Part shown: in pieces, positions 69-23,545 of the stretch
Layout: each line of letters starts with the position of its first letter
How positions within the stretch are numbered: the first letter of the stretch is position 1
NCBI RefSeq assembly: GCF_021401345.1
Contig: NZ_JACBGE010000001.1
Location: forward strand, 124,001 to 188,000
Direction: 5' to 3'
Length of the DNA stretch: 64,000 nt
DNA from: Hydrogenophaga sp. NFH-34
GTDB lineage: Bacteria; Pseudomonadota; Gammaproteobacteria; Burkholderiales; Burkholderiaceae_C
Position numbers and translations under genes: made by a program
The notes under the pieces: model-generated
Database searches by the model: none
Told to the model about the DNA's origin: nothing
What the model saw: only the letters and a program-made list of their open reading frames with translations

Positions 69-194
69 GCTGACACCCGTCAGCAGCATGCCCAGGCAGT
101 CTCGATCTTCAAGACTGCGATGCGGTTCCGACCGCGCTGATCACCCAGTTCGCTCCGGCATCCCAGCGCGAACGGCCATCGGTTCTCCCGATGG
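69..194 (+). ncRNA. Structured leader RNA, copy A (upstream of DUF3577 gene)
   Basis: Five successive hairpins can be drawn. H1 is GCTGAC/GTCAGC (69-74 with 79-84). H2 is GCAGTC/GACTGC (96-101 with 113-118), with an 11-nt loop ending in ATCTTCAA. H3 is GCGGT/ACCGC (122-126 with 131-135). H4 is GTTCGC/GCGAAC (148-153 with 168-173). H5 is CCATCGG/CCGATGG (176-182 with 188-194). The H1-H2 linker contains CATGCCCAGG. Copies at 3674 and 23403 keep H1-H3 with different but still complementary stems, which indicates selection on RNA (or ssDNA) structure. A further stem CACACC/GGTGTG lies near 237-264 before the start codon at 296. I recall a published candidate RNA motif named after DUF3577 genes; identity with this one is unverified. 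Confidence 0.7.
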
Positions 195-295
195 TGATGC
201 CACCCAAGCTGTTCCTTCAACCCACGCGGGGGTTCCACACCTTCCCCGCCTTGGGTCGGGTGTGTCTCCGCCTCTTTGTTCTCAGGAGATTCACC

Positions 296-859
296 ATGAC
301 CACTTCCACCGAAAAGTCCTTCTTCGACCTGCACATCACCGGACTCGGGTATCTCAATCGCATCCGCGAAGTGAAGCCCAAGAAAGGCGATGCGTTCCTG
401 GCCTGCGACATCGCGGCGCTCAACGGCCCCAGCGATGATGTGGCCTACGTGCGTTTCGACACGCGCGTCTCGGGCTCCGAAGCGCAGCACCTGGTGCGCC
501 GCTGCATCCAAGCGGTTGATGCCGAGAAGAAGGTGATGATCGGCTTCCGCCTGGGCGACCTGTGGACCGACACCTTTACCTACTCCAAGGGCAAGCGTGC
601 CGGCGAGCAGGGCGTTAGCCTCAAGGCCCGCCTGCTGTTCGTCAGTTGGATCAAGGTCGATGGCAAGCTCGTCTACAAGGCCGAGCCCAAGCCGACCGAC
701 GCCGACGACCGCGACGAACGCGACGTGCGCGCCACGGATGTCCCCGCGACGTCCGCCGAGCCGCAAGCCGCTGCGTCCGAGCCCGCCAGGCCCGCCGCTG
801 AAGCTGCCGATGAAGCCACTGCCGATGCGCCCGCATTGGAAGTTGCCGAGTCGTTCTGA
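296..859 (+). CDS. DUF3577 / STY4534-family ICE protein
   Basis: 187 aa. Conserved accessory protein of clc/PAGI-type ICEs; family members are annotated as STY4534-family ICE replication proteins, but no biochemical role is established that I know of. The recognisable core is residues 1-125 (FFDLHITGLGYLNRIREV near the N-terminus, then a beta-rich segment with KVMIGFRLGDLWTDTF), followed by a low-complexity Ala/Pro/Glu-rich acidic tail. The core resembles a small OB-like or ssDNA-binding fold, which is inference. The start at 296 was chosen because CAGGAGATT precedes it by 8 nt; the frame is open further upstream to 191, but that would overlap the structured leader. Followed by a strong hairpin terminator, so probably its own transcription unit. 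Confidence 0.85.
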   Translation: MTTSTEKSFFDLHITGLGYLNRIREVKPKKGDAFLACDIAALNGPSDDVAYVRFDTRVSGSEAQHLVRRCIQAVDAEKKVMIGFRLGDLWTDTFTYSKGKRAGEQGVSLKARLLFVSWIKVDGKLVYKAEPKPTDADDRDERDVRATDVPATSAEPQAAASEPARPAAEAADEATADAPALEVAESF

Positions 860-864
860 TCCGC

Positions 865-905
865 AAGGCCCTGACTCTGAATTGAGCCCAGGGCCTTGTC
901 TTCTC
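865..905 (+). terminator. Rho-independent terminator after DUF3577 gene
   Basis: Perfect 9-bp stem AAGGCCCTG (865-873) with CAGGGCCTT (889-897), 15-nt loop, followed by a T-rich stretch (GTCTTCT). It lies 6 bp after the stop codon. Confidence 0.7.
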
Positions 906-979
906 CCACTCGCGTGCGCATGCGACCGTCACCATGACGGCCGTGTGCGTGACCGCAGCTTCGTCCGCAGGAGTTCTTC

Positions 980-1609
980 ATGATCACCATTCCCGGCCAA
1001 TTGGCCATCAAGACCATCCACGGCCGCAACGGCGACTTCAACGTCGGGCGCCTTGCGACCTCCATCGGCGAGTTCGTCGTGAAGAACGCCGAACTCGACC
1101 AGTACGCCGAAGGCAAGTACGAGGGCGATTTCGCCATCGCGGAGATTCGCCCGTCCACGTACAGCGCCAACGGCCGCATGGTCATCGAGATCCGCGCCCT
1201 CCTGGGTGGGATGACTTTGTCCAACATCGACGCCCTGAGCCGTGACGACGCCCGCCGGCTGAGTCCGCAGGAAGTCGATCCGATCGACGAGGAAGCGCAG
1301 ACCGCCACGCCGACGCCGACGACCGCCCCCAAGGCGGCCGGCCGGAAGAAGGCGCGCAGCTCGCGCGACCCGCTGGTCGATACCACGCCGTTCGGCAGCG
1401 AGCCGGCTGCTGCGTCTGCCGAGGCTACGGCCCATGCGGACGACGACGGCGACGCGGCGCTGTTCGACACACTCTGGCCGCTGGGCGATGTCGTCAAGCT
1501 CGATGCCACCGTGGATCGGCGCGTGCTGCGCCAGCAGCGCGACCGCCTCGGCGACCTGGGCTACGAGTTCGCTCCGCTGTCCCAGGACTGGCACCTCGCC
1601 AGGGTGTGA
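980..1609 (+). CDS. DUF3275-family ICE protein
   Basis: 209 aa. N-terminal conserved domain (residues 1-90; MITIPGQLAIKTI start and a YEGDFAIAEIRPSTY segment) matches the DUF3275 family, found almost only in ICEs of this class. The middle (100-155) is a low-complexity Pro/Thr/Ala linker with a basic AGRKKARS patch. The C-terminal 45 residues (ALFDTLWPLGDVVKLDATVDR) form a second conserved block. Function unknown. The start has GCAGGAG about 9 nt upstream. The gene sits in a string of individually leadered accessory genes between DUF3577 and the helicase. Confidence 0.8.
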   Translation: MITIPGQLAIKTIHGRNGDFNVGRLATSIGEFVVKNAELDQYAEGKYEGDFAIAEIRPSTYSANGRMVIEIRALLGGMTLSNIDALSRDDARRLSPQEVDPIDEEAQTATPTPTTAPKAAGRKKARSSRDPLVDTTPFGSEPAAASAEATAHADDDGDAALFDTLWPLGDVVKLDATVDRRVLRQQRDRLGDLGYEFAPLSQDWHLARV

Positions 1610-1651
1610 TCCCATCGCCATTTCACGCCGCATGCCTGCGGCTTTCCACCA

Positions 1652-1677
1652 CCCGCCGGGGCTCCTTCCCCGGCGGG
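1652..1677 (+). promoter_or_regulatory. Leader hairpin before gene at 1711
   Basis: Ten-bp perfect stem CCCGCCGGGG (1652-1661) with CCCCGGCGGG (1668-1677), 6-nt loop and no T-tract. It ends 33 nt before the ATG at 1711, between the preceding stop codon and the CAGGAGTC ribosome binding site. It could be a processing, attenuation or stability element. Confidence 0.5.
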
Positions 1678-1710
1678 AGGACTCCGGCCCTTTCTCACAG
1701 GAGTCATTCC

Positions 1711-2103
1711 ATGGGCTGGACATTCGTTCGATTGACGCGCGATCAGTTGATCCGCGAGCTGACCGCAACCGAGGAAACCGAGCGGTCGTGCAGTGAGGTC
1801 ATCGACCACACGCTGGTCGGCAACGTGCTGTGGACGGTGGTGCGCGTCACCGCCAAGCAGGCCGGTGTCCTGGGTCTCGCACCCGGCGAGTCGGCCACCT
1901 TGATCGGCTGCCATCTGCTGGAAAGCGAGGGCCGCGAATGGGGCTACAAGTTCCTGGTCGAGGCCGAGCACCCGTACTACTACTCGTGCCCGCTGCGCTA
2001 TCTCGACATGGCGCCGCAGCGCTGCGCCACCTGGCGCGCAAGGGTGCATGCCTTCCACCAGCAGCCGACGCGCAAAGCGGCCGGCGATGCAGCCACCGAC
2101 TGA
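1711..2103 (+). CDS. Conserved ICE protein, possibly DUF6927-like
   Basis: 130 aa, function unknown. Begins MGWTFVRLTRDQLIREL. Contains a conserved core (residues 20-110) with SCSEVIDHTLVGNVLWTVV and a PYYYSCPLRYLDM segment. No signal peptide or membrane segment. The MGWT start and YYSCP block resemble a small family usually annotated DUF6927 in conjugative elements; this is from memory and moderate. The start at 1711 is supported by CAGGAGTC 8 nt upstream. The end nearly abuts the next small gene. Confidence 0.7.
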   Translation: MGWTFVRLTRDQLIRELTATEETERSCSEVIDHTLVGNVLWTVVRVTAKQAGVLGLAPGESATLIGCHLLESEGREWGYKFLVEAEHPYYYSCPLRYLDMAPQRCATWRARVHAFHQQPTRKAAGDAATD

Positions 2104-2110
2104 GGCGCAC

Positions 2111-2380
2111 ATGGACACCCTCATGTCGTCCTTGCCGCCCGAGCTGCTTCGCTTCGTCGAAGACCAGTTGGCCAACAACGAGGTTTCCGACGACGACGAA
2201 CTGCGCGAGCACTTCATCGCCAACGGCCTGAGCGAAGAACAGGCGTGGCAGGCACTGACCTACCGCGCCCTGTACTTGCGCTACATCTTCCTCGAAGGCT
2301 TCACGCCGATCCTTAAAGGCCAGGAAGCGCTTTGCTTCAACCCGCATAGCCGAGGCTGGGAGCCGGTTCAGAACCCATAG
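2111..2380 (+). CDS. Small conserved ICE protein
   Basis: 89 aa acidic protein (MDTLMSSLPPELLRFVEDQ...), predicted largely helical. Residues 15-60 contain a VSDDDELREHFIANGLSEEQAWQAL segment that looks like a UBA- or HTH-like helical bundle (inference). Starts 7 bp after the preceding stop, so is probably translated with it. An in-frame ATG at 2087 inside the previous gene is an alternative start; neither has a good Shine-Dalgarno sequence. I do not recognise a named family. Confidence 0.65.
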   Translation: MDTLMSSLPPELLRFVEDQLANNEVSDDDELREHFIANGLSEEQAWQALTYRALYLRYIFLEGFTPILKGQEALCFNPHSRGWEPVQNP

Positions 2381-2418
2381 GCCGCTTCCCAGCGACGCGC
2401 TTCTTCATCCCTTCCATC

Positions 2419-2443
2419 AGGCCCTGTTCAGCAGGGCTTTTCT
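2419..2443 (+). terminator. Rho-independent terminator
   Basis: Stem GCCCTG (2421-2426) with CAGGGC (2432-2437) followed by TTTTCTTC. It lies 40 bp after the stop codon of the gene ending at 2380 and before the leader of the DUF932 gene. Confidence 0.7.
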
Positions 2444-2515
2444 TCGTCCCATGCAATCCGCGCATCCGGCCTCGGCCGCTGGATACCGATTGCTTCATTC
2501 CGCAAGGAGATCATC

Positions 2516-3343
2516 ATGCAACTCGCTTCCCGCTTCGCTTTTCGCTCCCCGGTGCTGCGCGCCGACTATCCGCTGTCGGATGATCAGATTCGCACCGTGG
2601 CCCCGTCCATCTTCGCGGACACCCCGCACGAAAGCCGCTCCGAACGGTACAGCTACATCCCCACGGCGGCTGTGCTGACTGAACTGCGCAAGGAAGGCTT
2701 CCAGCCGTTCATGGTGTGCCAGACCCGCGTGCGGCACGAGGACCGCCGCGACTACACCAAGCACATGCTGCGCCTTCGCCACGCCAGCCAGATCAACGGT
2801 GCCGAGGCGAACGAGATCATCCTGCTCAACTCGCACGACGGCAGCAGCAGCTACCAGATGCTCGCGGGCCTGTTCAGATTCGTCTGCCACAACGGCCTGG
2901 TGTGCGGCGACACCTTCGCCGACGTGCGGGTGCCCCACAAGGGCAACGTCACCGATCACGTGATCGAAGGCGCCTACGAGGTGCTGCACGGCTTCGAGCG
3001 CGTGCAGGACTCGCGCGACGCCATGCAGGGCATCACGCTGGACAACGGCGAGGCCGAGGTCTTCGCCAGGTCGGCGCTGACCTTGAAGTACGACGATTCG
3101 GGCAAGGCCTTGCCCATCACGGAGACCCAGATCCTGCGGCCCCGTCGTTACGACGACAACCGCGCCGACCTGTGGACTGTCTTCAACAGAGTCCAGGAGA
3201 ACCTGGTCAAGGGCGGCCTGAGCGGCCGTGCTGCCAACGGGCGCCGGCAGCGCACGCGAGCCGTCCAGGGCATCGACCAGAACGTCCGGCTCAACCGGGC
3301 GCTGTGGCTGCTCGCGGACGGCCTACGCCAGCTCAAAGCCTGA
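2516..3343 (+). CDS. DUF932 domain protein
   Basis: 275 aa. DUF932/phage-plasmid-like family protein common on plasmids and ICEs, function unknown. The core runs from about residue 10 to 270 and includes RYSYIPTAAVLTELRKEGF, the highly conserved QINGAEANEIILLNSHDGSSSYQMLAGLFRFVCHNGL block (about 90-125) and a C-terminal RAVQGIDQNVRLNRALWLLADGL. Start preceded by GCAAGGAG, 8 nt upstream. The leader carries a GGATACCGATTGC sequence also found at 11-23. It is a single-gene unit flanked by terminators. Confidence 0.85.
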   Translation: MQLASRFAFRSPVLRADYPLSDDQIRTVAPSIFADTPHESRSERYSYIPTAAVLTELRKEGFQPFMVCQTRVRHEDRRDYTKHMLRLRHASQINGAEANEIILLNSHDGSSSYQMLAGLFRFVCHNGLVCGDTFADVRVPHKGNVTDHVIEGAYEVLHGFERVQDSRDAMQGITLDNGEAEVFARSALTLKYDDSGKALPITETQILRPRRYDDNRADLWTVFNRVQENLVKGGLSGRAANGRRQRTRAVQGIDQNVRLNRALWLLADGLRQLKA

Positions 3344-3348
3344 CCCAC

Positions 3349-3388
3349 AAGCGGATCGTGCCTCACGGCATGGTCCGCTTTTTTTTGG
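3349..3388 (+). terminator. Rho-independent terminator after DUF932 gene
   Basis: Stem AAGCGGA (3349-3355) with TCCGCTT (3374-3380), inner GTG/CAC pairing, followed by a run of eight T. A classical strong terminator 6 bp after the stop. Confidence 0.85.
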
Positions 3389-3673
3389 CTGGTGCTGTGC
3401 TGCCAGCGCACCGTGTTCCATTTGGTTCGGTGTAACCCTAATGCGGCAATTCGCGGCTGCCTCGAAAATCGAGATTCGACTGCATACCTCCCTGGCTTTT
3501 CCTCCCTGAGCCAAGCAGTCATCTTTGCCGCCTCGGTGTCCCCGGGGCGGTTTTCTTTTGCGGCCGTCCTTCCGGCGCCGCGGGCGATGCGCCAGCGCAA
3601 ACAGGGTTGGGCGCCGGGTCGGTTTTTCGCTCACGCGGTGTACGCAGCTTGGCGCAGGCTATGACTCGTGTCC
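3389..3673 (+). other. Non-coding spacer before leader RNA copy B
   Basis: No convincing gene. Short open frames here lack ribosome binding sites and typical codon bias. A hairpin-like CCGCC...GGCGG followed by TTTTCTTTT near 3518-3557 could be a terminator or part of a longer leader. From about 3648 the sequence (GGCGCAGGCT...TGTCCG) begins to resemble the corresponding region before copy A. Confidence 0.4.
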
Positions 3674-3803
3674 GTCGGCGTAGCCGACAACATGCCCAGG
3701 TAGCCCAGACCTTCAAGGCTACGGTGCGTTGCGACGCACGGTCTGATTCTTCACAACGACGTTCACCGCGTCTTCTTTCATCCCCCTGGGGCAGTGACTG
3801 CCC
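3674..3803 (+). ncRNA. Structured leader RNA, copy B
   Basis: H1 is GTCGGC/GCCGAC (3674-3679 with 3683-3688). H2 is GTAGCC/GGCTAC (3700-3705 with 3717-3722), with the same 11-nt loop pattern ending CTTCAA. H3 is GTGCGT/ACGCAC (3724-3729 with 3734-3739). The CATGCCCAGG linker is identical to copy A. Stem bases differ from copies A and C but pairing is kept. The H4 seen in A and C is not evident; instead a GGGCAG/CTGCCC hairpin lies at 3789-3803, 41 nt before the start codon at 3845. Confidence 0.7.
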
Positions 3804-3844
3804 TAGCGGGTGGTGCTGTCTCCGCTCACTTCGAGGACATCACC

Positions 3845-4501
3845 ATGCCTGCACCTTCTTCCCCCAAGACGCTCTATCGCATCGACGAATGCCCCGACCT
3901 GATGGCCGATGGCGTCGTCGGTGACGAGAACGGCAACCTGGTCTTCATCTCTCTCTGGTCGCGCGACACCGCCGTCCAGGGATTCCTGGCCCGCCTCACC
4001 CTGGGCCGGGACGAGCAGGGACTGGACCAGTTCCACGTCATCACCGAGCAGGGCGCGAGCATCCCGGTCTTCGTCGGCAACGTCGAGAACCTGGAAAAGC
4101 GCAGCGCACGCGCCTACCGGCGCACGCTGTTCGGCTCGCTGACCAACATCTGGCTGTTCGATCGGCGCTGCGTCAAGCCCGACAAGGCCAACGCCAGCGC
4201 GCTGGCGCTCCTGCCCCGCGGCTCCGCGCACCGGCTCGACCGGATGTGGAGGCTGGTGCGGGACACCTGCCCGCTGCCGCTTCTCGATCCCTGGCGCGAT
4301 GGCGTGCTGGAGCTGCTGCAGGCGAAGTCAATGCTGACGCGCCTGCCGTTCGCCCTCGGTCCCCTGGAAGGCCATCGGCTCGCCATCGACGTGCCGACGC
4401 TGACCCAGGTGCTGGGCGGCCTGATCCGCAGCGGTGCGCTGGTCGCCGACACGCCCGTCAGCCGCATGCCCTCGGCCCGCCCGCTCGAAGCGGTGGCTTG
4501 A
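3845..4501 (+). CDS. Conserved ICE protein of unknown function
   Basis: 218 aa, soluble, no signal peptide. Contains a conserved N-terminal region (LYRIDECPDLMADGVVGDENGNLVFI..., residues 9-80) and a C-terminal region with SAHRLDRMWRLVRDTCPLPLLDPWRDGVLELL (125-165). I cannot assign a family; similar proteins sit beside DUF932 and DUF6094 genes in related elements. The ATG at 3845 is preceded by CGAGGACATCACC. It is the gene behind leader RNA copy B. Confidence 0.75.
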   Translation: MPAPSSPKTLYRIDECPDLMADGVVGDENGNLVFISLWSRDTAVQGFLARLTLGRDEQGLDQFHVITEQGASIPVFVGNVENLEKRSARAYRRTLFGSLTNIWLFDRRCVKPDKANASALALLPRGSAHRLDRMWRLVRDTCPLPLLDPWRDGVLELLQAKSMLTRLPFALGPLEGHRLAIDVPTLTQVLGGLIRSGALVADTPVSRMPSARPLEAVA

Positions 4502-4514
4502 GGTTCCTTCACCG

Positions 4515-4540
4515 GACATGCACGCGCGCATGTCCGCATC
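4515..4540 (+). promoter_or_regulatory. Leader hairpin before DUF6094 gene
   Basis: Stem CGGACATG with CATGTCCG, about 8-nt loop, placed between the preceding stop codon (4501) and the TCAGGAGATT ribosome binding site. No T-tract, so attenuation or processing is as likely as termination. Confidence 0.45.
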
Positions 4541-4562
4541 CCTTCATCTTCAGGAGATTCCC

Positions 4563-5678
4563 ATGGCCCTCATGTTCCCGCGGCTCGCCCGCAACTTCAT
4601 CAAGAACGGGTACTTCCCCACGGATGAACCCACGCTCGAAAGAGCACTCGCCGCACTGGCGCCCGCCGAGGCCTCGGCCGGACCGCTGTGCATCCTCGAT
4701 CCCTGCGCCGGCGAAGGCGTGGCGATCGCCGAAGCCGCGCACGCCCTCGGGCGCGAGCGGGTCCAGGCCTTCGCCGTCGAGTACGAGGCCGAGCGTGCAC
4801 GCCACGCCCGGCAGTTGGTCGATCGCTGCATCCACGGCGACCTGATGGACACGCTGATCAGCCGGCAGAGTTTCGGCCTGCTGTGGCTCAACCCGCCGTA
4901 TGGCGACCTGTCCAAGGATGCCAACGGCAACGTCGGCTACCAGAGCCAGGGCCGCGCCAGGCTGGAAAAGCTGTTCTATCAGAAGGCGCTGCCGCTGCTG
5001 CAATACGGCGGCGTGCTGATCTACATCGTGCCGCACTATGTGCTCGATGCCGAGCTGGTCGGATGGCTGACCCGGCACTTCGCCGAGCTGCGCATCTACC
5101 GCGCGGTGGACGCGCAGTTCAGGCAAATCGTGATCTTCGGTCGCAAGGTTCGCCAGCGTGACCAGGTATCGGATTCGTGCAAGGCCACGCGCGCGCTGCT
5201 GTTGCAGATCGGGCAAGGCGACGCCGAAGCGGAGGAACTGCCGGTTGAATGGCCGTTCCTGCCGTACACGGTGCCTGCCACGGCCGAGCCGGAGCACTTC
5301 TACCGCGTGACGATGGAGCCCGAGCAGTTCGCCGATGAAGTCGGCCGGCTGCAAGGACTCTGGCCGACGCTCGACACGCACCTTGGCGCCGCGCAGCAGT
5401 CGCTGCGGTCCCCGGCGCGAGGGTTATCGCATTGGCATCTCGCCTTAGCGCTCGCCGCGGGTGCGATTTCCGGCGTGGTGAAGTCTAAGACGGGCCGCGT
5501 GCTCGTCGTCAAGGGCGACACGCACAAGGAGAAGACCTTGCAGACGGAGTACACCGAGCGCGACGACGGCACCGTGGCCGAGACGCGCATCCTGACCGAC
5601 AAGTTCGTGCCGGTCATCCGCGCCTGGGACATGACGCCGGGCTCGTCGACGTGTGGCGAGGTGCTGACCATCCGCTGA
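4563..5678 (+). CDS. DUF6094 protein, N6-adenine methyltransferase-like
   Basis: 371 aa. Starts MALMFPRLARNFIKNGYFPTDE, typical of DUF6094 ICE proteins. SAM-binding motif I is DPCAGEG (about residues 46-52) and motif IV is NPPYGD (about 110-115), the signature of amino-group DNA methyltransferases. The C-terminal half (200-371) is a separate domain without an obvious target recognition region. No partner restriction nuclease is nearby, so it is either an orphan methyltransferase protecting the element or a non-DNA methyltransferase. ATG at 4563 with CAGGAGATT upstream. Confidence 0.8.
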   Translation: MALMFPRLARNFIKNGYFPTDEPTLERALAALAPAEASAGPLCILDPCAGEGVAIAEAAHALGRERVQAFAVEYEAERARHARQLVDRCIHGDLMDTLISRQSFGLLWLNPPYGDLSKDANGNVGYQSQGRARLEKLFYQKALPLLQYGGVLIYIVPHYVLDAELVGWLTRHFAELRIYRAVDAQFRQIVIFGRKVRQRDQVSDSCKATRALLLQIGQGDAEAEELPVEWPFLPYTVPATAEPEHFYRVTMEPEQFADEVGRLQGLWPTLDTHLGAAQQSLRSPARGLSHWHLALALAAGAISGVVKSKTGRVLVVKGDTHKEKTLQTEYTERDDGTVAETRILTDKFVPVIRAWDMTPGSSTCGEVLTIR

Positions 5679-5732
5679 TCGCTGTTCCCTGACGGTTCGC
5701 CGTCGCTTCATCCACCAACTCATCCACCCAAC

Positions 5733-5771
5733 GGGGCCATGTCACCCCGCCGGGTGCCGTGGCCCCTCTTT
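5733..5771 (+). promoter_or_regulatory. Leader hairpin before gene at 5791
   Basis: Stem GGGGCCA (5733-5739) with TGGCCCC (5760-5766), a GC-rich inner loop that can itself pair, and TCTTTC following. It could act as a weak terminator or a leader structure, 20 nt before the start codon. Confidence 0.5.
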
Positions 5772-5790
5772 CATCCGAAGGAGAAACACC

Positions 5791-6096
5791 ATGGCATTCG
5801 CAGTTCTCAACGTGGCGTTGCAAGCACGCTTTGCCCCCGGTCACCTTGTCATGACCTGCGGCATTGACGCGCTGGTCCGGCAGGGCCGGCTCAACCCGAC
5901 CCCGTACCTCTGCCGCCATCTCAGCGGCGATTGGGGCGACCTCGACGACAGCGACCGGCGGCAGAACGATGCCGCGTTGCGCTCCGGCGAGGATCGGCTG
6001 TTCTCGTCCTACCAGGTCGCGCCCGACCTGAAGCTTTGGATCATCACCGAATGGGATCGCAGCGTGACCACGCTGCTGTTGCCCAGCGAATACTGA
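5791..6096 (+). CDS. Small conserved ICE protein
   Basis: 101 aa. MAFAVLNVALQARFAPGHLVMTCGIDALVRQGRLNPTPYLCRHLSGDWGDL...: an N-terminal half with a LNPTPYLxRHxxGDWGD motif and a C-terminal LWIITEWDRSVTTLLLPSEY. Such proteins occur on many plasmids and ICEs and are sometimes mislabelled as restriction subunits; nothing here supports restriction activity. Start has GAAGGAG 8 nt upstream. Confidence 0.75.
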   Translation: MAFAVLNVALQARFAPGHLVMTCGIDALVRQGRLNPTPYLCRHLSGDWGDLDDSDRRQNDAALRSGEDRLFSSYQVAPDLKLWIITEWDRSVTTLLLPSEY

Positions 6097-6140
6097 TCTT
6101 CATCTACCGCGGCCACGCGCCGTTCTTCTCTTCCCACCAC

Positions 6141-6178
6141 GGGGCATGCAATCGCCCCGCAGGGGAGGTGCATGCCCC
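6141..6178 (+). promoter_or_regulatory. Ten-bp leader hairpin before helicase gene
   Basis: Perfect stem GGGGCATGCA (6141-6150) with TGCATGCCCC (6169-6178); the enclosed loop contains a smaller CCCC/GGGG stem. Followed by ATTTCATTT and the start codon at 6199. Confidence 0.55.
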
Positions 6179-6198
6179 ATTTCATTTGGAGCATCACC

Positions 6199-8481: not shown

Positions 8482-8495
8482 TCCCACCCACCCAC

Positions 8496-8530: not shown

Positions 8531-8570
8531 TTCTGCACATCGACGGCAGGCCATGAAGTCGGGCGCATGC

Positions 8571-8640
8571 CAGTTCCCTTTGTTTGCTGCCCCAACGCCC
8601 TGCGGCGGCGATGGTGAGGGCTCCGTGTTCCAGGGAACTG
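8571..8640 (+). promoter_or_regulatory. Inverted repeat in transfer operon leader
   Basis: CAGTTCCCT (8571-8579) and AGGGAACTG (8632-8640) are exact 9-bp inverse complements 52 nt apart, with the second arm ending 4 nt before the ATG at 8645. This may be an operator for transfer gene control or an RNA structure that covers the start region. Confidence 0.45.
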
Positions 8641-8644
8641 CCCC

Positions 8645-9247
8645 ATGCAACCACTCACCTGCGTCGTTCATCGCCTGGCTGCGCCTGCCTTGCTGGTTGG
8701 CTGCGTGCTCATCACCGGCTGCGCCGCCACGGGCACGGCGAGCACCCCGACTGCCCCTGACTCGATTCCCGAGCCTGCGGTGTTGGTCAGGACCATCGCC
8801 CCGGAGCCCGAGCCGAGCCTGATCCCGGTGGCCCGTTATGGGCGCTACACGCTGGTCGAGATGGTGCCGGAACCGGCGCAGCGCGACCTGCTGCGGCAGG
8901 TGATCGAGATTTCGATTCCGCCGACCTTGGACGCGAGCGTCGGCGATGCCCTGCGGCACGTGCTGCTGCGCACCGGCTACCGCCTTTGCGATGCGCCGGA
9001 CGCCGCTTCGCTGTTCACGCTGCCGCTGCCGGCGGCGCACCTGCGGCTCGGGCCACTGCCGCTGCGCGATGCCCTGCTGGCGCTGGCCGGTCCGGCCTGG
9101 GATCTGTCCGTCGATGACGCTGCGCGCGCGGTGTGCTTCGCGCGCCTGACGACTGCGCGTGCGCCGGGCGCCAGCCCCATTCCTGCGGCTGCCGCATCGA
9201 GCGCGCCGGCCGCCGAACCCCACGTGCCCCAGGAGGCCCAGCCATGA
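8645..9247 (+). CDS. PilL N-terminal domain lipoprotein (TIGR03748 family)
   Basis: 200 aa. First gene of the mating-pair operon. The N-terminus has a hydrophobic signal and lipobox-like ITGC (Cys about residue 26), so is probably a lipoprotein. Residues 55-160 form the PilL-N domain (GRYTLVEMVPEPAQRDLLRQVIEISIPP...), with a secretin/STN-like repeat (TLDASVGDALRHVLLRTGYRLC, LPLRDALLALAGPAWDL). In PFGI-1 class ICEs this gene opens the type IV secretion operon. Overlaps the next gene by 4 bp (ATGA). Confidence 0.85.
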   Translation: MQPLTCVVHRLAAPALLVGCVLITGCAATGTASTPTAPDSIPEPAVLVRTIAPEPEPSLIPVARYGRYTLVEMVPEPAQRDLLRQVIEISIPPTLDASVGDALRHVLLRTGYRLCDAPDAASLFTLPLPAAHLRLGPLPLRDALLALAGPAWDLSVDDAARAVCFARLTTARAPGASPIPAAAASSAPAAEPHVPQEAQP

Positions 9248-9888: not shown

Positions 9889-9897
9889 GAGCCGGCC

Positions 9898-14666: not shown

Positions 14667-14779
14667 CCGCATCGGCCGCCGTCGCGGAAAGCGGTGGCGG
14701 GCCGGTTCCGATTGATTGCGGCACCGGAAGACCGGCCGTTTGAGCATCAAGCCATCCGCATCCCTCGGAGAACGGCTCG

Positions 14780-15190
14780 ATGGAAACCACTCGCAATCCC
14801 GCGCAGGTTCGGCGCTTTGCCGTCGCGGCACCCTGGACCGTGCGTCTTGTCGCGCTTCTGCTTGCCGCTGCCGGATTGCAGCCCGCCATCGCCGCCGATG
14901 CCTCCGACAACGCCGCGGAGCGCGAGATGCTCGCCGCGGTGACGCGCCAGCTCGACCTACTGGACCGCCTCGCCGAGCGAGCCGCCGCCACCGCGCCGCA
15001 GGAGCGCACCCGCTACCACTTTGACTACGCGCGGCTGCGTGCTGATCTGGAGCGCGTGCGCACCGGCGTGCACGACTACCTCGTTCCGCAACGCGCCCAG
15101 CCGCGCGATCCTGTGCCGCTGCTGGCCGGCGACTACACGCGCAGCAATGCAACCACCGCGACGCCTGCCAAGGAGGCGCCGTCGCCATGA
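14780..15190 (+). CDS. RAQPRD-family ICE protein
   Basis: 136 aa. Signal peptide about 12-36. Contains the literal RAQPRD motif near residue 106 that names the family (TIGR01690). The mature protein is a helical periplasmic polypeptide (EREMLAAVTRQLDLLDRLAERAAA...). Start at 14780 follows CGGAGAACGGCTCG. Overlaps the next gene by 4 bp. Role in the channel unknown. Confidence 0.88.
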   Translation: METTRNPAQVRRFAVAAPWTVRLVALLLAAAGLQPAIAADASDNAAEREMLAAVTRQLDLLDRLAERAAATAPQERTRYHFDYARLRADLERVRTGVHDYLVPQRAQPRDPVPLLAGDYTRSNATTATPAKEAPSP

Positions 15191-15426: not shown

Positions 15427-15447
15427 CCCCATGAAAGGTACTTCGCC

Positions 15448-15825: not shown

Positions 15826-15837
15826 GGCCCGGCAACG

Positions 15838-16955: not shown

Positions 16956-17881
16956 AGTCCCTCGTGAAGCGTTCATCTGCGGCGGCCCTGGCCGGCCTGC
17001 TGCTGTGCCTGGCTTTCGTGCCTGCAGTCCATGCCGTCGAAATCCTGCGCTGGGAGCGCCTGCCGCTGGCGGTGCCGCTCGTCGTCGCCCAGGAGCGCGT
17101 GGTGTTCGTCGAGCGCAACGTGCGCATCGGCGTTCCACCCACCGTTGGCGAACAGTTGCGCGTGCAGAGCGCCGGGGGCGCGATCTACCTGCGCGCCAAT
17201 GCGCCGATCCCGCCCACGCGGCTGCAATTGCAGGACGTGGAATCGGGCGCGCTGATCCTGCTGGACATCGCGGCCGAGCCGGCGAAGGCGGGCCAACCCG
17301 CGCTCGAACCCGTGCGCATCGTGGAAGGCGACGTGCCGGCCACGCGCTACGGCGAGCCGGCCAGGCCTGGGGCGACGGCGGACGACGATGCTGAACGCAC
17401 GGCACCTGCTGCGAAGCGCGCTACGCCGGTGGCGGTCGTGCTCACGCGCTATGCGGCGCAGAACCTCTATGCGCCGCTGCGCACCGTGGAGCCCGTGCCT
17501 GGCATCGGCCGCGTCAACCTGCGGCGCGGCCTGGAGCTGTCCACCTTGGTGCCGACGCTGCCGGTGCGTGCGCAGGCGCTGGCCGCCTGGCGGCTCGAAG
17601 ACCAGTGGGTGACGGCGGTGAAGCTCACCAACGCCTCCGGGCGCTGGCTCGACCTCGATCCCCGCGCGCTGCAGGGCGACTTTCTCGCCGCGACCTTCCA
17701 GCACCCGAACCTGGCGCCGGCCGGCCGCGCCGCCGACACCACGGTGGTCTACCTCGTTACCCGTGGCCACGGCCTGGCCGAGTCGCTGCTGCCCAAGCTC
17801 TCACCGATCGACGCGACGGTGAACCTGCCGCCGGCTGCGGCGGCCGGCCAGGCCGAAGGAGGTGCCCGCCATGAAAAGTAA
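16952..17881 (+). CDS. TIGR03749-family ICE protein, TraK/VirB9-like
   Basis: 309 aa, secreted: signal peptide 1-28 (VPAVHA). Periplasmic beta-rich domain (VEILRWERLPLAVPLVVAQERVVFVERNVRIGVP...), a low-complexity linker near 135-165, and a second domain with NLRRGLELSTLVPTLPVRAQALAAWRL. The DUF3438/TIGR03749 group corresponds to the outer-membrane core TraK/VirB9 position. Overlaps the next gene by 11 bp. Confidence 0.87.
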   Translation: MKSLVKRSSAAALAGLLLCLAFVPAVHAVEILRWERLPLAVPLVVAQERVVFVERNVRIGVPPTVGEQLRVQSAGGAIYLRANAPIPPTRLQLQDVESGALILLDIAAEPAKAGQPALEPVRIVEGDVPATRYGEPARPGATADDDAERTAPAAKRATPVAVVLTRYAAQNLYAPLRTVEPVPGIGRVNLRRGLELSTLVPTLPVRAQALAAWRLEDQWVTAVKLTNASGRWLDLDPRALQGDFLAATFQHPNLAPAGRAADTTVVYLVTRGHGLAESLLPKLSPIDATVNLPPAAAAGQAEGGARHEK

Positions 17882-19343
17882 TCCCCTCCTGAAGTGGCTG
17901 CTGATCCCGATGGCGCTGGTGCTGCTGTTCGTCGGCATCAAGATGTTCTCCGGGGATCGCGGCGCCAAGCCCGTTCCGGCCGGCAGCGCCAACCCACTCA
18001 CGCCCGAAGAGATGAAGGCGCTGGGCATCGAGGGCGACACGCCGCGCGATACCGTCGCGACGCTGGTGGCCCAGGTCAAGCAGTTGCGCAATGAGCTGCA
18101 GACGGCGCTCAACGACAACAAGAACCAGAAGAGCGAGAACGAGCGCATGCGCGCGCGGGAGAGCGCCATCGACCAGCGCATCCAGTCCGCGCTCGAAGGC
18201 GAGCGCGGCCGCCTGCAGCAGGACCGCGAGCAGTTGGCCGGCGACCGCCAGCAGACCCAGGGCCTGTTGCAAGACCTGCAGCGGCGCCTGGATGGGCTTT
18301 CCGGCAAGGGCGGCCAGGCCGACCTGCCGGTGGGGCTGGGCCTGGAGGATGGCGACGGCAAGGGCTTCGGCGGCACCCAGGGCGGCGCCGCGCGCAGCGC
18401 CAGCGGCACGCGCTGGGTGGAACCGGACGACGCGAAGCCCTCGGCGAAGAACGGCAGCGGCGGCGCCCTGAACTTCCCGACCAGCTTCGGGCCGGCGCAG
18501 AAGACGCTTTCCGACACGGCCGACAACGTGGCCAGCACCGTGGCGGACGCCGGCAGCCGCGCGGTGGGCGCGTCGGCCAAGCCGGTCTACACGGTGCCGT
18601 CGAACTCGACGCTGATGGGCTCGATCGCGATGACCGCGCTGATCGGCCGCGTGCCGATCGACGGCACGGTCAACGACCCGTACCCGTTCAAGGTGCTGAT
18701 CGGCCCGGACAACCTGACCGCCAACGGCATCGACATCCCCGACGTGGCGGGCGCGGTGGTCAGCGGCACGGCCTCGGGCGACTGGACACTTTCCTGCGTG
18801 CGCGGACAGATTCGCTCTGTCACGTTCGTCTTCAACGACGGCACGGTGCGCACCATTCCGGAGGACGGCAACCGCAACCAGAATGGCGGCGGTGGCTCGG
18901 GCGGCAACGCGAACAGCATCACGCACGGCGGCCTGGGCTGGATCAGCGATCCTTACGGCATCCCCTGCGTCAGCGGCGAACGGCGCAGCAACGCGCAGCA
19001 GTACCTGGGCTCGCAGGCCCTCATCACCGCGGCCGGTGCCGGCGCAGCCTCCCTCATCAAGTCGGACAACGGCAGCGTGGCCGTGGTCGCCAACAGCAAC
19101 GGCTCGCTCGGCACCGTGGGCATCAGCGGCAACGAGGCGATGGGCCGCATCCTGGCCGGTGGCGTGCGCGACATGGCCGATTGGGTCAACAAGCTGTATG
19201 GGCAGGCCTTCGCCGCGGTCTACGTGCGCCCCGGCGCCAAGGTCGCCGTGCACCTGGAGCAGCCGCTCAACATCGACTACGACGCCAAGGGGCGCCGGGT
19301 CAATCACCGCATCGGAGGCAAGCATGCGTCGGATTTGGATTGA
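17871..19343 (+). CDS. TIGR03752-family ICE protein, TraB/VirB10-like
   Basis: 490 aa. Membrane anchor (about 9-26), periplasmic coiled coil (55-145, LVAQVKQLRNELQTALNDNKNQK...), then a C-terminal VirB10-like domain from about 245 (YTVPSNSTLMGSIAMTALIGRVPIDGTVNDPYPFKVLIG), with an antenna-like region including QYLGSQALITAAGAGAASL. Spans inner to outer membrane in the channel. Start at 17871 follows GAAGGAGGTGCCCGCC. Confidence 0.9.
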   Translation: MKSNPLLKWLLIPMALVLLFVGIKMFSGDRGAKPVPAGSANPLTPEEMKALGIEGDTPRDTVATLVAQVKQLRNELQTALNDNKNQKSENERMRARESAIDQRIQSALEGERGRLQQDREQLAGDRQQTQGLLQDLQRRLDGLSGKGGQADLPVGLGLEDGDGKGFGGTQGGAARSASGTRWVEPDDAKPSAKNGSGGALNFPTSFGPAQKTLSDTADNVASTVADAGSRAVGASAKPVYTVPSNSTLMGSIAMTALIGRVPIDGTVNDPYPFKVLIGPDNLTANGIDIPDVAGAVVSGTASGDWTLSCVRGQIRSVTFVFNDGTVRTIPEDGNRNQNGGGGSGGNANSITHGGLGWISDPYGIPCVSGERRSNAQQYLGSQALITAAGAGAASLIKSDNGSVAVVANSNGSLGTVGISGNEAMGRILAGGVRDMADWVNKLYGQAFAAVYVRPGAKVAVHLEQPLNIDYDAKGRRVNHRIGGKHASDLD

Positions 19344-19770
19344 ATCGGCCGCGATCCTGTGCGCGGCCGTGGTGCTGGGTGGCTGCGCCACCAGCAAGGA
19401 CAAGCTGCTGCCGCACGGCGATCACACCATGCTCGATGTGTGGAACCAGGAGACGGGCGGCAGCGCCGGTGGCGCTGCGGGTGGCGGACAGGCTGCACGG
19501 CAACTGCTCGATGCACGCCAGGGCCTGCGCCGGCCGCTGACGGAGGCCGACGTGCAGGCAGCACCTGCCGCCGCAGCAGCCTACACGCGCACCGCGGCCA
19601 ACGAGATCTACCGCCAGTTCCACCGGCTGCCGAACCCCGACCTGGTGATGTACGTGTTTCCGCACCTGGCCGGCAGCGATCCGGTGCCGGTGCCCGGCTA
19701 CACCACCGTCTTTCCCCTGTATCAGCGCGTGCAGTACGCGATGCCCGGCGAACGCCTGGAGGACTACTGA
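19324..19770 (+). CDS. TIGR03751-family conjugal transfer lipoprotein
   Basis: 148 aa. Lipobox VLGGCATS (Cys about residue 21) defines a lipoprotein. Followed by a flexible Gly/Ala region and the conserved AANEIYRQFHRLPNPDLVMYVFPHL segment. Analogous in position to VirB7/TraV. Overlaps both neighbours (20 bp and 1 bp). Confidence 0.87.
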   Translation: MRRIWIESAAILCAAVVLGGCATSKDKLLPHGDHTMLDVWNQETGGSAGGAAGGGQAARQLLDARQGLRRPLTEADVQAAPAAAAAYTRTAANEIYRQFHRLPNPDLVMYVFPHLAGSDPVPVPGYTTVFPLYQRVQYAMPGERLEDY

Positions 19771-22664
19771 TGGCCTGGCCCTTGCCCTGGCCGCGCAAGG
19801 CCCTGACGTCTGCTGGTCCCGACCTGGATGCCGATGACGCCTGGTCGCAGCATGTCACGATGATGGCGTCGCACGGCATCCCCGAGCCGGGCATCGCAGC
19901 GGACGACCGGCCGCGCCGACCGGCCACCGAGGCGGACCTGCAAGCGCTCTACGGCGTGGCGCCGTCCTTCGCCGACCTGCTGCCTTGGGTGGAGTACCTG
20001 CCGGATTCCAAGAGCATGCTGCTGGAAGACGGCCAATCGGTGGCTGGCTTCTTCGAGCTGGCGCCGGTGGGCACCGAGGGCCGCGAGATGGCCTGGCTGT
20101 GGCAGGCGCGCGATGCGTTGGAGAACGCGCTGCAGGACTCCTTCGACGAACTCGACGAGAACCCCTGGGTGGTGCAGCTCTACGCCCAGGACGAATCGAC
20201 CTGGGACAACTACCTGCGCGGGTTGGCCGACTACGTGCGGCCGCGCGCGCAGGGCAGCACCTTCACAGAGTTCTACGTGAGGTTCTTCGCACACCACCTG
20301 CGCGCCATCGCCAAGCCCGGGGGCCTGTTCGAGGACACGACCGTGACGCGCCTGCCGTGGCGCGGCCAGGTGCGGCGCGTGCGCATGGTGGTCTACCGGC
20401 GTGCTAACACGGCGAACGCATCGCGGCGCGGCCAGTCGCCCGAGCAGGCGCTGACGACGATCTGCGACCGGCTGGTGGGCGGCCTCGCCAACGCAGGCGT
20501 GAAATCCCGGCGCATGGAGGCGGCCGACATCCACGACTGGCTGCTGCGCTGGTTCAACCCGCATCCGACGCTGCTCGGCCCCAGCGCCGACGACCGCGAG
20601 CGCTTCTATGCGCTCACGCGCTATCCCGAGCAAGCCGAAGACGGAGAGATCGAATTGGCCAGTGACGACTTCGGACAGCGCCTGTTCTTCGGCCAGCCGC
20701 GCTCGGACGTGGCGAACGGTACGTGGCTGTTCGATGGCCTGCCGCACCGGGTCATCGTGATGGACCGGCTGCGCATGCCGCCAGCGACCGGCCACGTCAC
20801 CGGCGAAACCCGCAAGGGCGGCGATGCGGTCAATGCGCTGTTCGACCAGATGCCCGAGGACACGGTGATGTGCCTGACGGTCGTCGCGGCGCCGCAGGAC
20901 GTGCTCGAAGCTCACCTGAACCACCTGAGCAAGAAGTCGGTCGGCGAGACGCTGGCCTCGGAGCAGACGCGCCGCGACGTGCAGGAAGCGCGCGGGCTGA
21001 TCGGCAGCGCGCACAAACTGTACCGCGGCGCGCTCGCCTTCTACCTGCGCGGGCGCGACCTGGCGCAGCTCGACGCCCGCGGCCTGCAACTGATCAACGT
21101 CATGCTCAACGCCGGCCTGCAGCCGGTGCGCGAGGAAGACGAGGTGGCGCCGCTGAACAGCTACCTGCGCTGGCTCCCGTGCGTGTTCGATCCGGCGCTG
21201 GACAAGCGCCAGTGGTACACGCAACTGATGTTCGCGCAGCACGCTGCGAACCTTGCGCCGGTGTGGGGCCGCAGCCAGGGCACGGGGCATCCGGGCATCA
21301 CGTTCTTCAACCGCGGCGGCGGGCCGATCACCTTCGATCCCTTGAACCGGCTCGACCGCCAGATGAACGCGCACCTGTTCCTGTTCGGGCCGACCGGCTC
21401 TGGCAAGTCGGCAACGCTCAACAACATCTTGAACCAGGTCACGGCCATCTATCGGCCGAGGCTGTTCATCGTGGAGGCTGGCAACAGCTTCGGTCTGTTC
21501 GGCGACTTCGCCACGCGGCTCGGCCTCAAGGTGCATCGCGTGAAGCTCGCTCCCGGCGCCGGCGTCAGCCTCGCGCCGTTCGCGGATGCCCACCGATTGG
21601 TCGACACGCCCAGCCAGGTGCAGACGCTGGACGCCGATGCGCTGGACGAGGACCAGGAGCCTGTCGCGCAGGCGGTAAGCCGCAGCGAGGAGGTGGACGA
21701 GCAGCGCGACGTGCTCGGCGAGCTGGAGATCACCGCGCGGCTGATGATCACCGGCGGCGAGGACAAGGAAGAAGCGCGCATGACGCGCGCCGACCGCAGC
21801 CTGATCCGCCAGTGCATCCTCGATGCGGCCCAGCTTTGCGTGGCCGACCGGCGCACGGTGCTCACGCGCGACGTGCGCGACGCGCTGCGCGAGCGCGCCC
21901 GCGATACCTCGCTGCCGGAGGTGCGCCGCGCACGGCTGTTGGAGATGGCGGACGCGATGGATATGTTTTGCCAGGGCGTGGACGGCGAGATGTTCGACCG
22001 GTCCGGCACGCCCTGGCCCGAGGCCGACATCACCATCGTGGACCTCGCCACGTTCGCGCGCGAGGGCTACAACGCCCAGCTCTCGATCTCGTACATCAGC
22101 CTCATCAACACGGTGAACAACATCGCCGAGCGCGACCAGTTCCTGGGCCGGCCGATCATCAACGTGACGGATGAAGGCCACATCATCACCAAGAACCCAC
22201 TGCTCGCGCCCTATGTCGTGAAGATCACGAAGATGTGGCGCAAGCTCGGCGCCTGGTACTGGCTGGCGACGCAGAACATCGACGACCTACCGAAGGCGGC
22301 CGAGCCCATGTTGAACATGATCGAATGGTGGATCTGCCTGTCGATGCCGCCCGACGAGGTGGAGAAGATTGCGCGCTTCCGCGAGCTGAACCCGGCGCAG
22401 AAGGCGCTGATGCTCTCCGCGCGCAAGGAGGCCGGCAAGTTCACTGAGGGCGTGATTCTCTCCAAGAGCATGGAAGTGCTGTTCCGTGCGGTGCCTCCCA
22501 GCCTCTACCTGGCGCTGGCTCAGACCGAGCCCGAGGAGAAGGCGGAACGCTTCCAGTTGATGCAGCAGCACGGCATCGGCGAGCTGGATGCGGCCTTCAA
22601 GATCGCCGAGAAGATCGACCGTGCTCGCGGCATCGAATCGCTGGCGATCGGTGCACTGGCTTGA
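19770..22664 (+). CDS. traC: TraC/VirB4-type conjugative ATPase
   Basis: 964 aa. Energises assembly of the conjugation channel. N-terminal VirB4 domain (about 60-470), Walker A FGPTGSGKSA at about 539-548, an acidic insertion near 620-650, Walker B-like PIINVTDEGHII near 797, and a C-terminal AAA region with WYWLATQNIDDLPKAAEPMLN. Belongs to the TraC_PFL_4706 group (TIGR03744). The start codon shares one base with the previous stop (TGATG). Confidence 0.93.
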   Translation: MAWPLPWPRKALTSAGPDLDADDAWSQHVTMMASHGIPEPGIAADDRPRRPATEADLQALYGVAPSFADLLPWVEYLPDSKSMLLEDGQSVAGFFELAPVGTEGREMAWLWQARDALENALQDSFDELDENPWVVQLYAQDESTWDNYLRGLADYVRPRAQGSTFTEFYVRFFAHHLRAIAKPGGLFEDTTVTRLPWRGQVRRVRMVVYRRANTANASRRGQSPEQALTTICDRLVGGLANAGVKSRRMEAADIHDWLLRWFNPHPTLLGPSADDRERFYALTRYPEQAEDGEIELASDDFGQRLFFGQPRSDVANGTWLFDGLPHRVIVMDRLRMPPATGHVTGETRKGGDAVNALFDQMPEDTVMCLTVVAAPQDVLEAHLNHLSKKSVGETLASEQTRRDVQEARGLIGSAHKLYRGALAFYLRGRDLAQLDARGLQLINVMLNAGLQPVREEDEVAPLNSYLRWLPCVFDPALDKRQWYTQLMFAQHAANLAPVWGRSQGTGHPGITFFNRGGGPITFDPLNRLDRQMNAHLFLFGPTGSGKSATLNNILNQVTAIYRPRLFIVEAGNSFGLFGDFATRLGLKVHRVKLAPGAGVSLAPFADAHRLVDTPSQVQTLDADALDEDQEPVAQAVSRSEEVDEQRDVLGELEITARLMITGGEDKEEARMTRADRSLIRQCILDAAQLCVADRRTVLTRDVRDALRERARDTSLPEVRRARLLEMADAMDMFCQGVDGEMFDRSGTPWPEADITIVDLATFAREGYNAQLSISYISLINTVNNIAERDQFLGRPIINVTDEGHIITKNPLLAPYVVKITKMWRKLGAWYWLATQNIDDLPKAAEPMLNMIEWWICLSMPPDEVEKIARFRELNPAQKALMLSARKEAGKFTEGVILSKSMEVLFRAVPPSLYLALAQTEPEEKAERFQLMQQHGIGELDAAFKIAEKIDRARGIESLAIGALA

Positions 22665-22676
22665 GGGGAGAACACC

Positions 22677-23432
22677 ATGCGGATCGCTCGCTTCATTCCA
22701 TCCCGCCCGGTCGCACTGGTCGCCGTGCTGCTCGTCGTCGCGCTGATCGCAGCGGTCTGGCTAGGCATGCAGCCACAGGCGCCGATCGCTGAAGACGTTT
22801 CCACGTCGGCCGACTTCAAACCGGCGCCCGCGCCGGCATCCGCCACCACCACCGGCCCGCCGTGGCGCTACGGGCGCGACGATGCGCGCTTCACGGTGGT
22901 GGAGTACGCCGACCTCGAATGTCCGTTCTGCCGCGCCTACTTCGCGGTGCTCAAACAGTGGATCGATGCTCACCCCGAGGTGAACTGGCAGTGGCAGCAC
23001 CTGCCGCTGACCACGCATGAGCCTGCGGCGACTGCCAATGCGCGCCTGGTCGAGTGTGTCGGCGAGGCCGGCGGCCCGGCCGCTTTCTGGCACGCCGTGG
23101 AGTGGGTCTACGCGCATACCCGCGGCGACGGCCAGGGCCTGCCCGAGGGCCTGGGCTATCCCGGCATCACGCCCGCCGCCCAGCAATGCCTCGACAGCGA
23201 CCGTCCCGATGCGCTGATCCGCGCGCAGTCGGCGATCGCCGCGCAGGAGGGCATCAAGGTCACGCCCACGCTGCGCCTGCGGGACCGCCATTCCGGAAAG
23301 ACGCTGTTGCTGCATGGCCCGGTGGAAGGCGATGCGCTGCTGTCGGCCATCGACCTGCTGGCGGCCGGCGGCACCACCGAGACCGCATCGAAGGAAATGC
23401 CTGCCGAGTCCCTCGGCGACATGCCCAGGTAG
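22677..23432 (+). CDS. DsbA-like thiol-disulfide protein of transfer operon
   Basis: 251 aa. Membrane or signal anchor (about 12-32), then a thioredoxin-fold domain with catalytic CPFC (Cys82, Cys85) and a cis-Pro in KVTPTLRLRD. Would catalyse disulfide formation or isomerisation in the periplasmic parts of the mating apparatus, several of which are Cys-rich (for example the TIGR03755 and TIGR03756 proteins downstream). Oddity: the last residues (LGDMPR) and the stop codon are encoded within leader RNA copy C, so the RNA element and the gene end overlap. Confidence 0.88.
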   Translation: MRIARFIPSRPVALVAVLLVVALIAAVWLGMQPQAPIAEDVSTSADFKPAPAPASATTTGPPWRYGRDDARFTVVEYADLECPFCRAYFAVLKQWIDAHPEVNWQWQHLPLTTHEPAATANARLVECVGEAGGPAAFWHAVEWVYAHTRGDGQGLPEGLGYPGITPAAQQCLDSDRPDALIRAQSAIAAQEGIKVTPTLRLRDRHSGKTLLLHGPVEGDALLSAIDLLAAGGTTETASKEMPAESLGDMPR

Positions 23433-23545
23433 CCCCGATCTTCAAGGCTACGCCGCGGCCCCCGGCCGCGCTGATCGACCCCGTTCGCTTCGCATCCCTC
23501 GACGCGAACAGCCGCCGCGCTGCGGTGGCGGATGCCTGTTCTTCC
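23403..23545 (+). ncRNA. Structured leader RNA, copy C
   Basis: H1 is GCCGAG/CTCGGC (23403-23408 with 23412-23417). H2 is GTAGCC/GGCTAC (23429-23434 with 23446-23451), with loop ending GATCTTCAA. H3 is GCGGCC/GGCCGC (23455-23460 with 23464-23469). H4 is GTTCGC/GCGAAC (23483-23488 with 23504-23509), identical in stem to copy A, with GCATCCC in both loops. H5 is CCGCCGC paired with GTGGCGG, one G-U. The stop codon of the DsbA-like gene lies in the 5' arm of H2. Homology to copy A continues downstream (CCCACGCGGG block). Confidence 0.7.

Follow-up and report, generated by a model that had tools for sequence, protein, structure and literature searches.

Two described systems lie closest to the locus analysed here, the radC RNA (RF01754; Weinberg et al. 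2010, PMC2864571) and the transfer competence regulon of ICEclc (Sulser et al. 2022, PMC9286271); both papers, and PMC2892462 and PMC13393423 below, are represented here by passages. Since its description in 2010, the radC RNA has remained an orphan candidate. A third name, the DUF3577 RNA motif, reportedly stands on a candidate list of 2017; it is called after the gene behind copy A (see below), whereas the leaders of DUF3577 genes considered here overlap only radC in the Rfam copy used. For ICEclc, the passages of Sulser et al. describe the promoters and a 27-bp motif (S3 Fig), and no mention of a leader, a hairpin or an untranslated region was found in them; the present analysis adds the leader. 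No publication linking the radC RNA to an ICE programme was found in a search that left most subscription papers and supplements outside, and the word radC is absent from two ICEclc papers of 2026. While the radC family is known, the three members described here, the support for a pseudoknot (PK1), the 44-bp motif and the coincidence with DUF2857 are new. The ICEclc programme has laboratory strains, reporters and RNA-seq, so that placing the RNA behind its promoters opens the function of the RNA to direct tests.

Identification of three radC RNAs

The window is a stretch of 64,000 nucleotides from Hydrogenophaga sp. NFH-34 (contig NZ_JACBGE010000001.1, here C11, positions 124,001 to 188,000). 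A sequence-only reading had proposed that one multi-hairpin arrangement recurs in it at three places, extending a motif named after DUF3577 to other genes. The arrangement is present at all three places, and each is a match to RF01754: the Rfam covariance scan gave four gathering-threshold matches in the window, one of them a tRNA and three of them radC RNAs, all three above the curated cut-off of 40 bits.

51–200 (+), type I radC RNA (copy A) that leads the DUF3577 gene (RF01754, 115.3 bits, E 2.7e-21)
3657–3811 (+), radC RNA copy B, whose 3′ half consists of plain hairpins and which leads the gene at 3845 (RF01754, 86.7 bits, E 8.8e-15)
23386–23535 (+), radC RNA copy C, type I, between a thioredoxin-like ORF and the gene at 23627 (RF01754, 118 bits, E 6.6e-22)

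The stems differ between copies A, B and C with pairing kept, just as had been written, and hairpins H4 and H5 are indeed common to copies A and C, both in sequence and in the folds. No other Rfam family overlaps the leaders at E ≤ 1 over the whole window, and none overlaps at E ≤ 0.1 at eleven leader loci, three of which precede DUF3577 genes. Judged by these matches, the three leaders are new members of the known radC family and not a separate DUF3577 motif; the idea of an extended DUF3577 motif is not supported, the leaders of the three DUF3577 genes included.

296–859 (+), DUF3577 gene behind copy A, by NCBIfam an ICE replication protein of the STY4534 family (PF12101, 202.6 bits; NF040584, 200.9 bits)
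3845–4501 (+), gene behind copy B, without a family match in the Pfam and NCBIfam search
23627–24214 (+), gene behind copy C, likewise without a family match in the Pfam and NCBIfam search

The start codons previously assigned to these genes (296, 3845 and 23627) are compatible with open frames. Copy C is intercistronic, since no site of the promoter-like motif described below stands in front of it and its first 47 nt double as the 3′ coding end of the thioredoxin-like ORF (PF13462; stop codon 23430–23432). In ICEclc a RadC gene lies behind the RNA that corresponds to copy C, whereas the ICE in the window has the gene without a family match at this place. In the genome as a whole, nine copies exceed the cut-off: C11 has five (three inside the window and two just before it), and contig C4, where ICE core genes are present as a second set, has four.

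At 23421–23432, the H2 stem has a T-A pair in copy C and in many copies of the RadC class, compared with C-G in most others; the T of copy C is part of the stop codon that ends the upstream ORF, and a matching change is seen on the opposite strand.

Secondary structure and the pseudoknot

The alignment comprises 143 above-threshold copies from 32 genomes. Its 126 distinct rows divide into 97 of type I and 29 others (22 of the ORF84835 class, three of the copy B class and four divergent ones from genome G599), with one ORF84835-class row still among the type I rows. The earlier proposal of a structured leader RNA with covariation is supported in this larger set. In type I (n=97), H1 is paired in 97.4%, H2 in 99.5%, H3 in 91.1% and H4 in 98.3%; on a tree of 62 type I rows, pair-to-pair changes on both sides number nine in H1, seven in H2, 12 in H3, five in H4, six in H5 and one in H6, with none in H0. 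PK1, in which the loop of H2 pairs with the bases just 3′ of H3, shows eight such changes on the same tree and is 93.8% paired in type I, its pairs varying in step as GC, AT and TA; in the non-type-I rows it is 75.2% paired as aligned.

104–142 (+), PK1 of copy A, GATC (104–107) with GATC (139–142); sequence, with helix-scan support
3706–3745 (+), PK1 of copy B, CAGACC (3706–3711) with GGTCTG (3740–3745); placed by eye, the automatic alignment being one column off
23436–23477 (+), PK1 of copy C, CGATC (23436–23440) with GATCG (23473–23477); sequence, with helix-scan support

A scan of all 4-bp helices over 62 non-redundant type I rows places PK1 at the top, with a score that is reached by none of 200 alignments simulated on the same tree without pairing. 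It is followed by H2 (reached by 2 of the 200), H1 (20) and H4 (40), and the first helix that is not explained by the model is the tenth. PK1 came first again, at 0/200, after removal of the copies from the own genome, where it was first spotted. A stricter per-pair covariation test with a tree null, whose type I set contained three copy-B-class rows, gave one of 9,316 pairs below E 0.05 in type I and, with all rows included, none of 9,591, so that the pairs are not established individually; the helix-level test was adopted after this weak outcome was seen. The scan lends support to the pseudoknot PK1 in the radC RNA, which may already be implied in Weinberg et al. (2010, PMC2864571), to go by its passages. 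The structure line of RF01754 printed by cmscan leaves PK1 and H4 unpaired and has three H6 pairs only, in contrast to the model presented here, in which PK1 is paired and H4 is a likely helix on the aligned sequences. A second pseudoknot, with H4 crossing H6 (GCATC/GATGC; H6 is 93.6% paired in type I), was considered and not adopted, in view of the 40 of 200 nulls that reach the H4 score and the single both-sided change in H6.

Folding of the single sequences is modestly unusual, with z values of -3.0, -2.5 and -2.1 for copies A, B and C. The complementary strands give -4.5, -1.7 and -1.5, so that, with values this modest and the complement of copy A lower than its sense strand, fold energies alone prove neither an RNA nor a strand. 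Read on the sense strand, changes from Watson-Crick to G-U outnumber those to A-C by 34:16 in type I (H1–H3, PK1 and H4) and by 19:5 in the remaining rows (H1–H3), 53:21 when pooled (p 2.6e-4). The excess is weaker, 42:28, when all eight helices of the 62-row set are counted, which tells against the leader reading proposed below. The mRNA-sense strand is indicated by these wobble changes as the one that folds.

Distribution and gene partners

With the own genome counted in, matches to the radC RNA occur in 8 of 147 relatives (7 above the cut-off), in 2 of 369 genomes sampled across the class and in 27 of 398 sampled from the family (26 above the cut-off), where the filter was stricter and weak matches were lost. 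Three or more copies are found in 24 of the 27 positive family genomes, some of which hold two ICEs. In the plasmid search, 3 of 63 records cover at least 80% of the query.

Eight query proteins were compared by tblastn with the 600 nt downstream of each copy. A query gene follows 134 of the 143 copies, and nine were classed as other; the partners are DUF3577 (35), ORF84835 (29), RadC (28), ORF88400 (17), the ORF88400 relative at C11:120095 (11), ORF89247 (8), the copy B gene (3) and the copy C gene (3). The matches are thus far from being scattered without a link to these genes, and the claim that each copy precedes a different conserved ICE gene stands as regards fixed partners; its scope is wider than the three genes named, with five copies on this ICE. 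The distance from the RNA to the start codon is near-constant in most classes (29–36 nt for ORF84835, 69–80 for ORF88400) and widest for DUF3577 (93–136).

The element in the window has the features of an ICEclc-type ICE, namely DUF2857, an AcaB-type ORF95213, a TraI_2 relaxase and an integrase adjoining tRNA-Gly. At 130 bits or more, a limit of our own choosing in the gap between 133.6 and 91.2 bits, DUF2857 of the ICEclc type is present in 24 of the 398 family genomes, and 23 of these are radC-positive, the exception being G766 (Fisher p 3e-32, uncorrected for kinship). The curated cut-off admits 42 of the 398 genomes, 25 of them radC-positive. Of the four radC positives that lie under the 130-bit limit, G690 has a DUF2857 match of 71 bits, a partial one, and G772 has one of 88.7 bits, while G764 and G791 have none at E ≤ 0.001; the radC RNA of G791 is below the cut-off. 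The radC RNA and the ICEclc-type DUF2857 protein nearly coincide in the family searched. In G599, where DUF2857 has diverged (149 and 133.6 bits), the divergent radC RNAs L135, L136 and L137 lie in AT-rich flanks, the RNA being kept and the promoter-like motif barely visible by eye.

Promoter-like motif and the ICEclc programme

ICEclc was represented by Paraburkholderia xenovorans LB400, which a ClcD query found at 100% and whose ICEclc is near-identical. After a single shift of 1,853 bp, 12 of 15 published core ORF numbers coincide exactly with LB400 stop codons; the remaining three (89247, 88400 and 84835) are one base off, and ORF89247 as numbered may be a different frame from the protein used behind that RNA. 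Five radC RNAs are present, before ORF89247, ORF88400, ORF84835, ORF81655 and ORF58432, the last of which is RadC (PF04002). According to the passages of Sulser et al. (PMC9286271), nine promoter regions of ICEclc are bimodal, those of 88400, 81655 and 58432 included, with doubt over 58432 as an independent promoter, a doubt with which the intercistronic placement of copy C fits. For 84835, 89247 and 73676 the same passages give stationary-phase RNA-seq rises with inactive reporter fragments. This counts against our reading, since UR84835 and UR89247 carry the RNA and the motif and yet were inactive.

The upstream motif is described by a 44-bp matrix that reads AAAnnGGg, a gap of about 8 nt, GgTgCcGATTg and then GAcg. 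It was trained on 53 upstreams of radC RNAs, those of the own genome among them; LB400, G148, G599 and the RadC-class copies were intended to be excluded, and two RadC-place copies entered (G745:2024191 and G772, scoring -2.7 and 6.6). The motif precedes most copies outside the RadC class, and its end lies a median of 14 nt from the RNA (IQR 14–15); 47 of the 53 training upstreams score at least 16.5.

1–36 (+), BisDC-type promoter-like motif before copy A, score 28.5; the 44-mer starts 8 nt before window zero (C11:123992)
3596–3639 (+), weaker promoter-like motif before copy B (C11:127596), score 15.2
8553–8596 (+), promoter-like motif without a radC RNA, 92 bp before the ORF at 8645, score 17.9
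14685–14728 (+), promoter-like motif without a radC RNA, 95 bp before the ORF at 14780, score 27.6
24260–24303 (+), promoter-like motif without a radC RNA, after the copy C gene, score 25.1

All nine best sites of the ICE in the window are on the plus strand (C11:122393, 120035, 123992, 138685, 148260, 112079, 132553, 114088 and 127596). On C4 the ICE reads from the minus strand, which also has seven of the eight best sites; the exception, at 102934 (24.5), counts against the motif, and is a palindrome with T-runs that is probably a terminator.

In LB400 (137 kb, both strands), whose own copies were outside the training set, the eight best sites score from 40.1 down to 16.6, and the next scores 14.5. 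They precede 88400, 84835, 81655, 73676, 91884, 89247, 67231 and inrR. Four of these are promoter regions published as BisDC-dependent, RNA-seq steps have been published for three more, and the eighth is ORF91884. Forty shuffles gave a mean of 0.07 matches of such strength, although the top single match, in one shuffle, reached 23.6. Orthologues of the four RNA-bearing sites were in the training set, and the independent test consists of the 73676, 91884, 67231 and inrR sites. From the start of the motif to the assigned start codon there are 93–107 bp at the four RNA-less sites and 243–293 bp at the four RNA-bearing sites, which points to the same promoter with or without an RNA module. Several regions count against the motif: the 58432 region has the RNA and lacks the motif (-7.4), while alpA (-1.2), where as at bisR (-3.7) the motif was not seen, traI (8.3) and int (5.0) have published activity with the motif weak or absent. 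A common motif upstream of transfer operons is found; this is a distinct claim from the published S3 Fig motif, and identity between the two is not asserted. The proposed tie to the transfer-competent state holds so far as it runs through this motif, which matches the transfer-competence programme. BisD has been described as a ParB-like protein that slides from bisS boxes (PMC13393423, 2026; passages), and expression of the operons in the window would, by analogy with their ICEclc orthologues, depend on BisDC.

The match before inrR ends 26 nt before the published start site, which is 25 nt upstream of the start codon according to passages of PMC2892462, whose text and table disagree on the position of inrR. 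By the same spacing, a radC leader would start near position 12 of the model, at the foot of the first stem, as a rough placement. For ORF81655, those passages give a 5′ end by primer extension, from a weak product, about 250 bp before the start codon, and the RNA begins 235 bp before it, in agreement within about 25 nt.

Two other candidates were set aside. The published 27-bp motif as the core of the RNA was rejected, the RNA of LB400 being absent before inrR, 67231, alpA and traI; GCCGG..GACGC, about 152 bp before the mapped inrR start, was dropped as the published motif, the matrix favouring a site nearer the start.

Proposed role of the leader

The radC RNA is probably a transcribed, pseudoknotted leader that stands behind a subset of the transfer-competence promoters, or between genes in the RadC class, and acts in cis after transcription. 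It would be a structured leader of about 150 nt with at least one further helix making a pseudoknot, most copies lying directly behind the promoters of some late operons of an ICEclc-type ICE and the RadC-class copy (copy C) between two genes of one operon. As the motif also stands without the RNA before inrR, ORF67231, ORF73676 and ORF91884, the RNA would be a module that can be present or absent between the coding region and a promoter of common type. We infer a transcription start near the first stem and an effect of the RNA, thereafter, on stability, translation or early elongation, its targets being the DUF3577, radC and ORF84835/88400/89247 operons in transfer-competent cells. The RNA is not the source of the dependence on BisDC and InrR, since late promoters with it (88400, 81655) and without it (inrR, 67231) are both dependent, as passages of PMC9286271 report. 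In the same passages, P. putida showed no drop in transfer once ORF88400-84388 or 81655-75419 had been deleted, so that the RNA-led operons may serve functions other than mating. With a leader of this kind, the ICE differentiation pathway, which the papers used here describe through its promoters, would gain a post-transcriptional layer.

An attenuator or antiterminator, by which the leader sets whether the polymerase enters the operon, is possible but unlikely. Passages of PMC2892462 show ICEclc transcript signals declining from 5′ to 3′, and in those of PMC9286271 the reads upstream of ORF81655 are the highest of all with a reporter only similar to Pint, the authors suggesting post-transcriptional control there; all of this would suit attenuation. 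Some classes have a T-run after the last helix, with a mean longest length of 4.6 for 88400 and 4.0 for 89247, but it is short in the 84835 (2.0), RadC (2.2) and DUF3577 (3.0) classes. Over all classes the mean ranges from 1.0 to 4.6, so that a U-tract after the last helix is not general. The RNA also stands before short transcripts, where long-range antitermination is needless.

It is improbable that the leaders are cleaved off and act elsewhere, or sequester a factor, as trans-acting RNAs. Several near-alike copies per genome (three or more in 24 of 27) would be expected of such RNAs, but each class keeps its own gene at the near-constant distance from the start codon noted above, 29–36 nt for 84835 and 69–80 for 88400. 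A small-molecule riboswitch, with which the compact pseudoknotted fold and the conserved loops would agree, is less probable again, the RNA being confined, across the family searched, to a single kind of mobile element and the genes downstream making up no pathway. The question-mark column in the table of the original description is presumably that of riboswitch status. The radC row has a question mark in that table, which would leave room for a riboswitch (Weinberg et al. 2010, PMC2864571; passages).

We give little credence to a DNA element, in which the hairpins would be inverted repeats forming a binding site for BisD, BisC or InrR. The co-occurrence with BisDC-type elements and the shared promoter motif described by Sulser et al. 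(PMC9286271; passages) speak for such a site; the compensatory stem changes, with G-U favoured over A-C, speak against it. In addition, the promoter-like motif is separate from the RNA and upstream of it, and inrR and ORF67231 respond to BisDC and InrR without the RNA. Frpo is a single-stranded DNA promoter for early genes in the recipient. An Frpo-like structure acting in single-stranded DNA during transfer is the least likely reading of all: genes of a DNA-handling kind behind the RNA (DUF3577, RadC) and operons dispensable for transfer in P. putida (PMC9286271; passages) would suit it, but the wobble bias favours the sense strand, while the opposite bias is expected if the promoter lay on the template strand and that strand were transferred (an objection that does not extend to a structure of the sense strand), and the motif upstream resembles that of a duplex promoter.

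Within the preferred reading of a cis-acting leader, it is conceivable, if doubtful, that the radC RNAs make up an RNA-level sub-regulon of the ICE transfer programme, in which one factor of transfer-competent cells would read the pseudoknotted leaders of DUF3577, radC and 84835/88400/89247 and make their output depend on the state of the DNA being transferred. Such a factor might perhaps be a DNA-processing protein of the ICE; the gp32 protein of T4 binds a pseudoknot in its own leader.

Other features of the element

The tRNA-Gly (CCC; 37505–37578, -) adjoins the gene of the 640-aa integrase (35342–37264, -) and marks one end of the ICE; a second copy of its last 14–25 nt was not found in C11:104001–188000. 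An AbiEii-type nucleotidyltransferase gene, the toxin of a type IV toxin-antitoxin system (31152–32072, +), adjoins the TraI_2 relaxase gene (32211–34226). The gap between the DUF932 gene and copy B holds, at 3489–3558 (+), a candidate ICE-borne small RNA with putative anti-ribosome-site loops. It is absent from the 260 nt preceding the copy-B-class RNA of genome G872, and is 95% identical in the relative G080. The candidate RNA matches the anti-hemB sRNA family weakly (36.3 bits, cut-off 49.5) and suhB/mmgR at 23.8 bits, and has two CCTCCC stretches and a terminator-like end.
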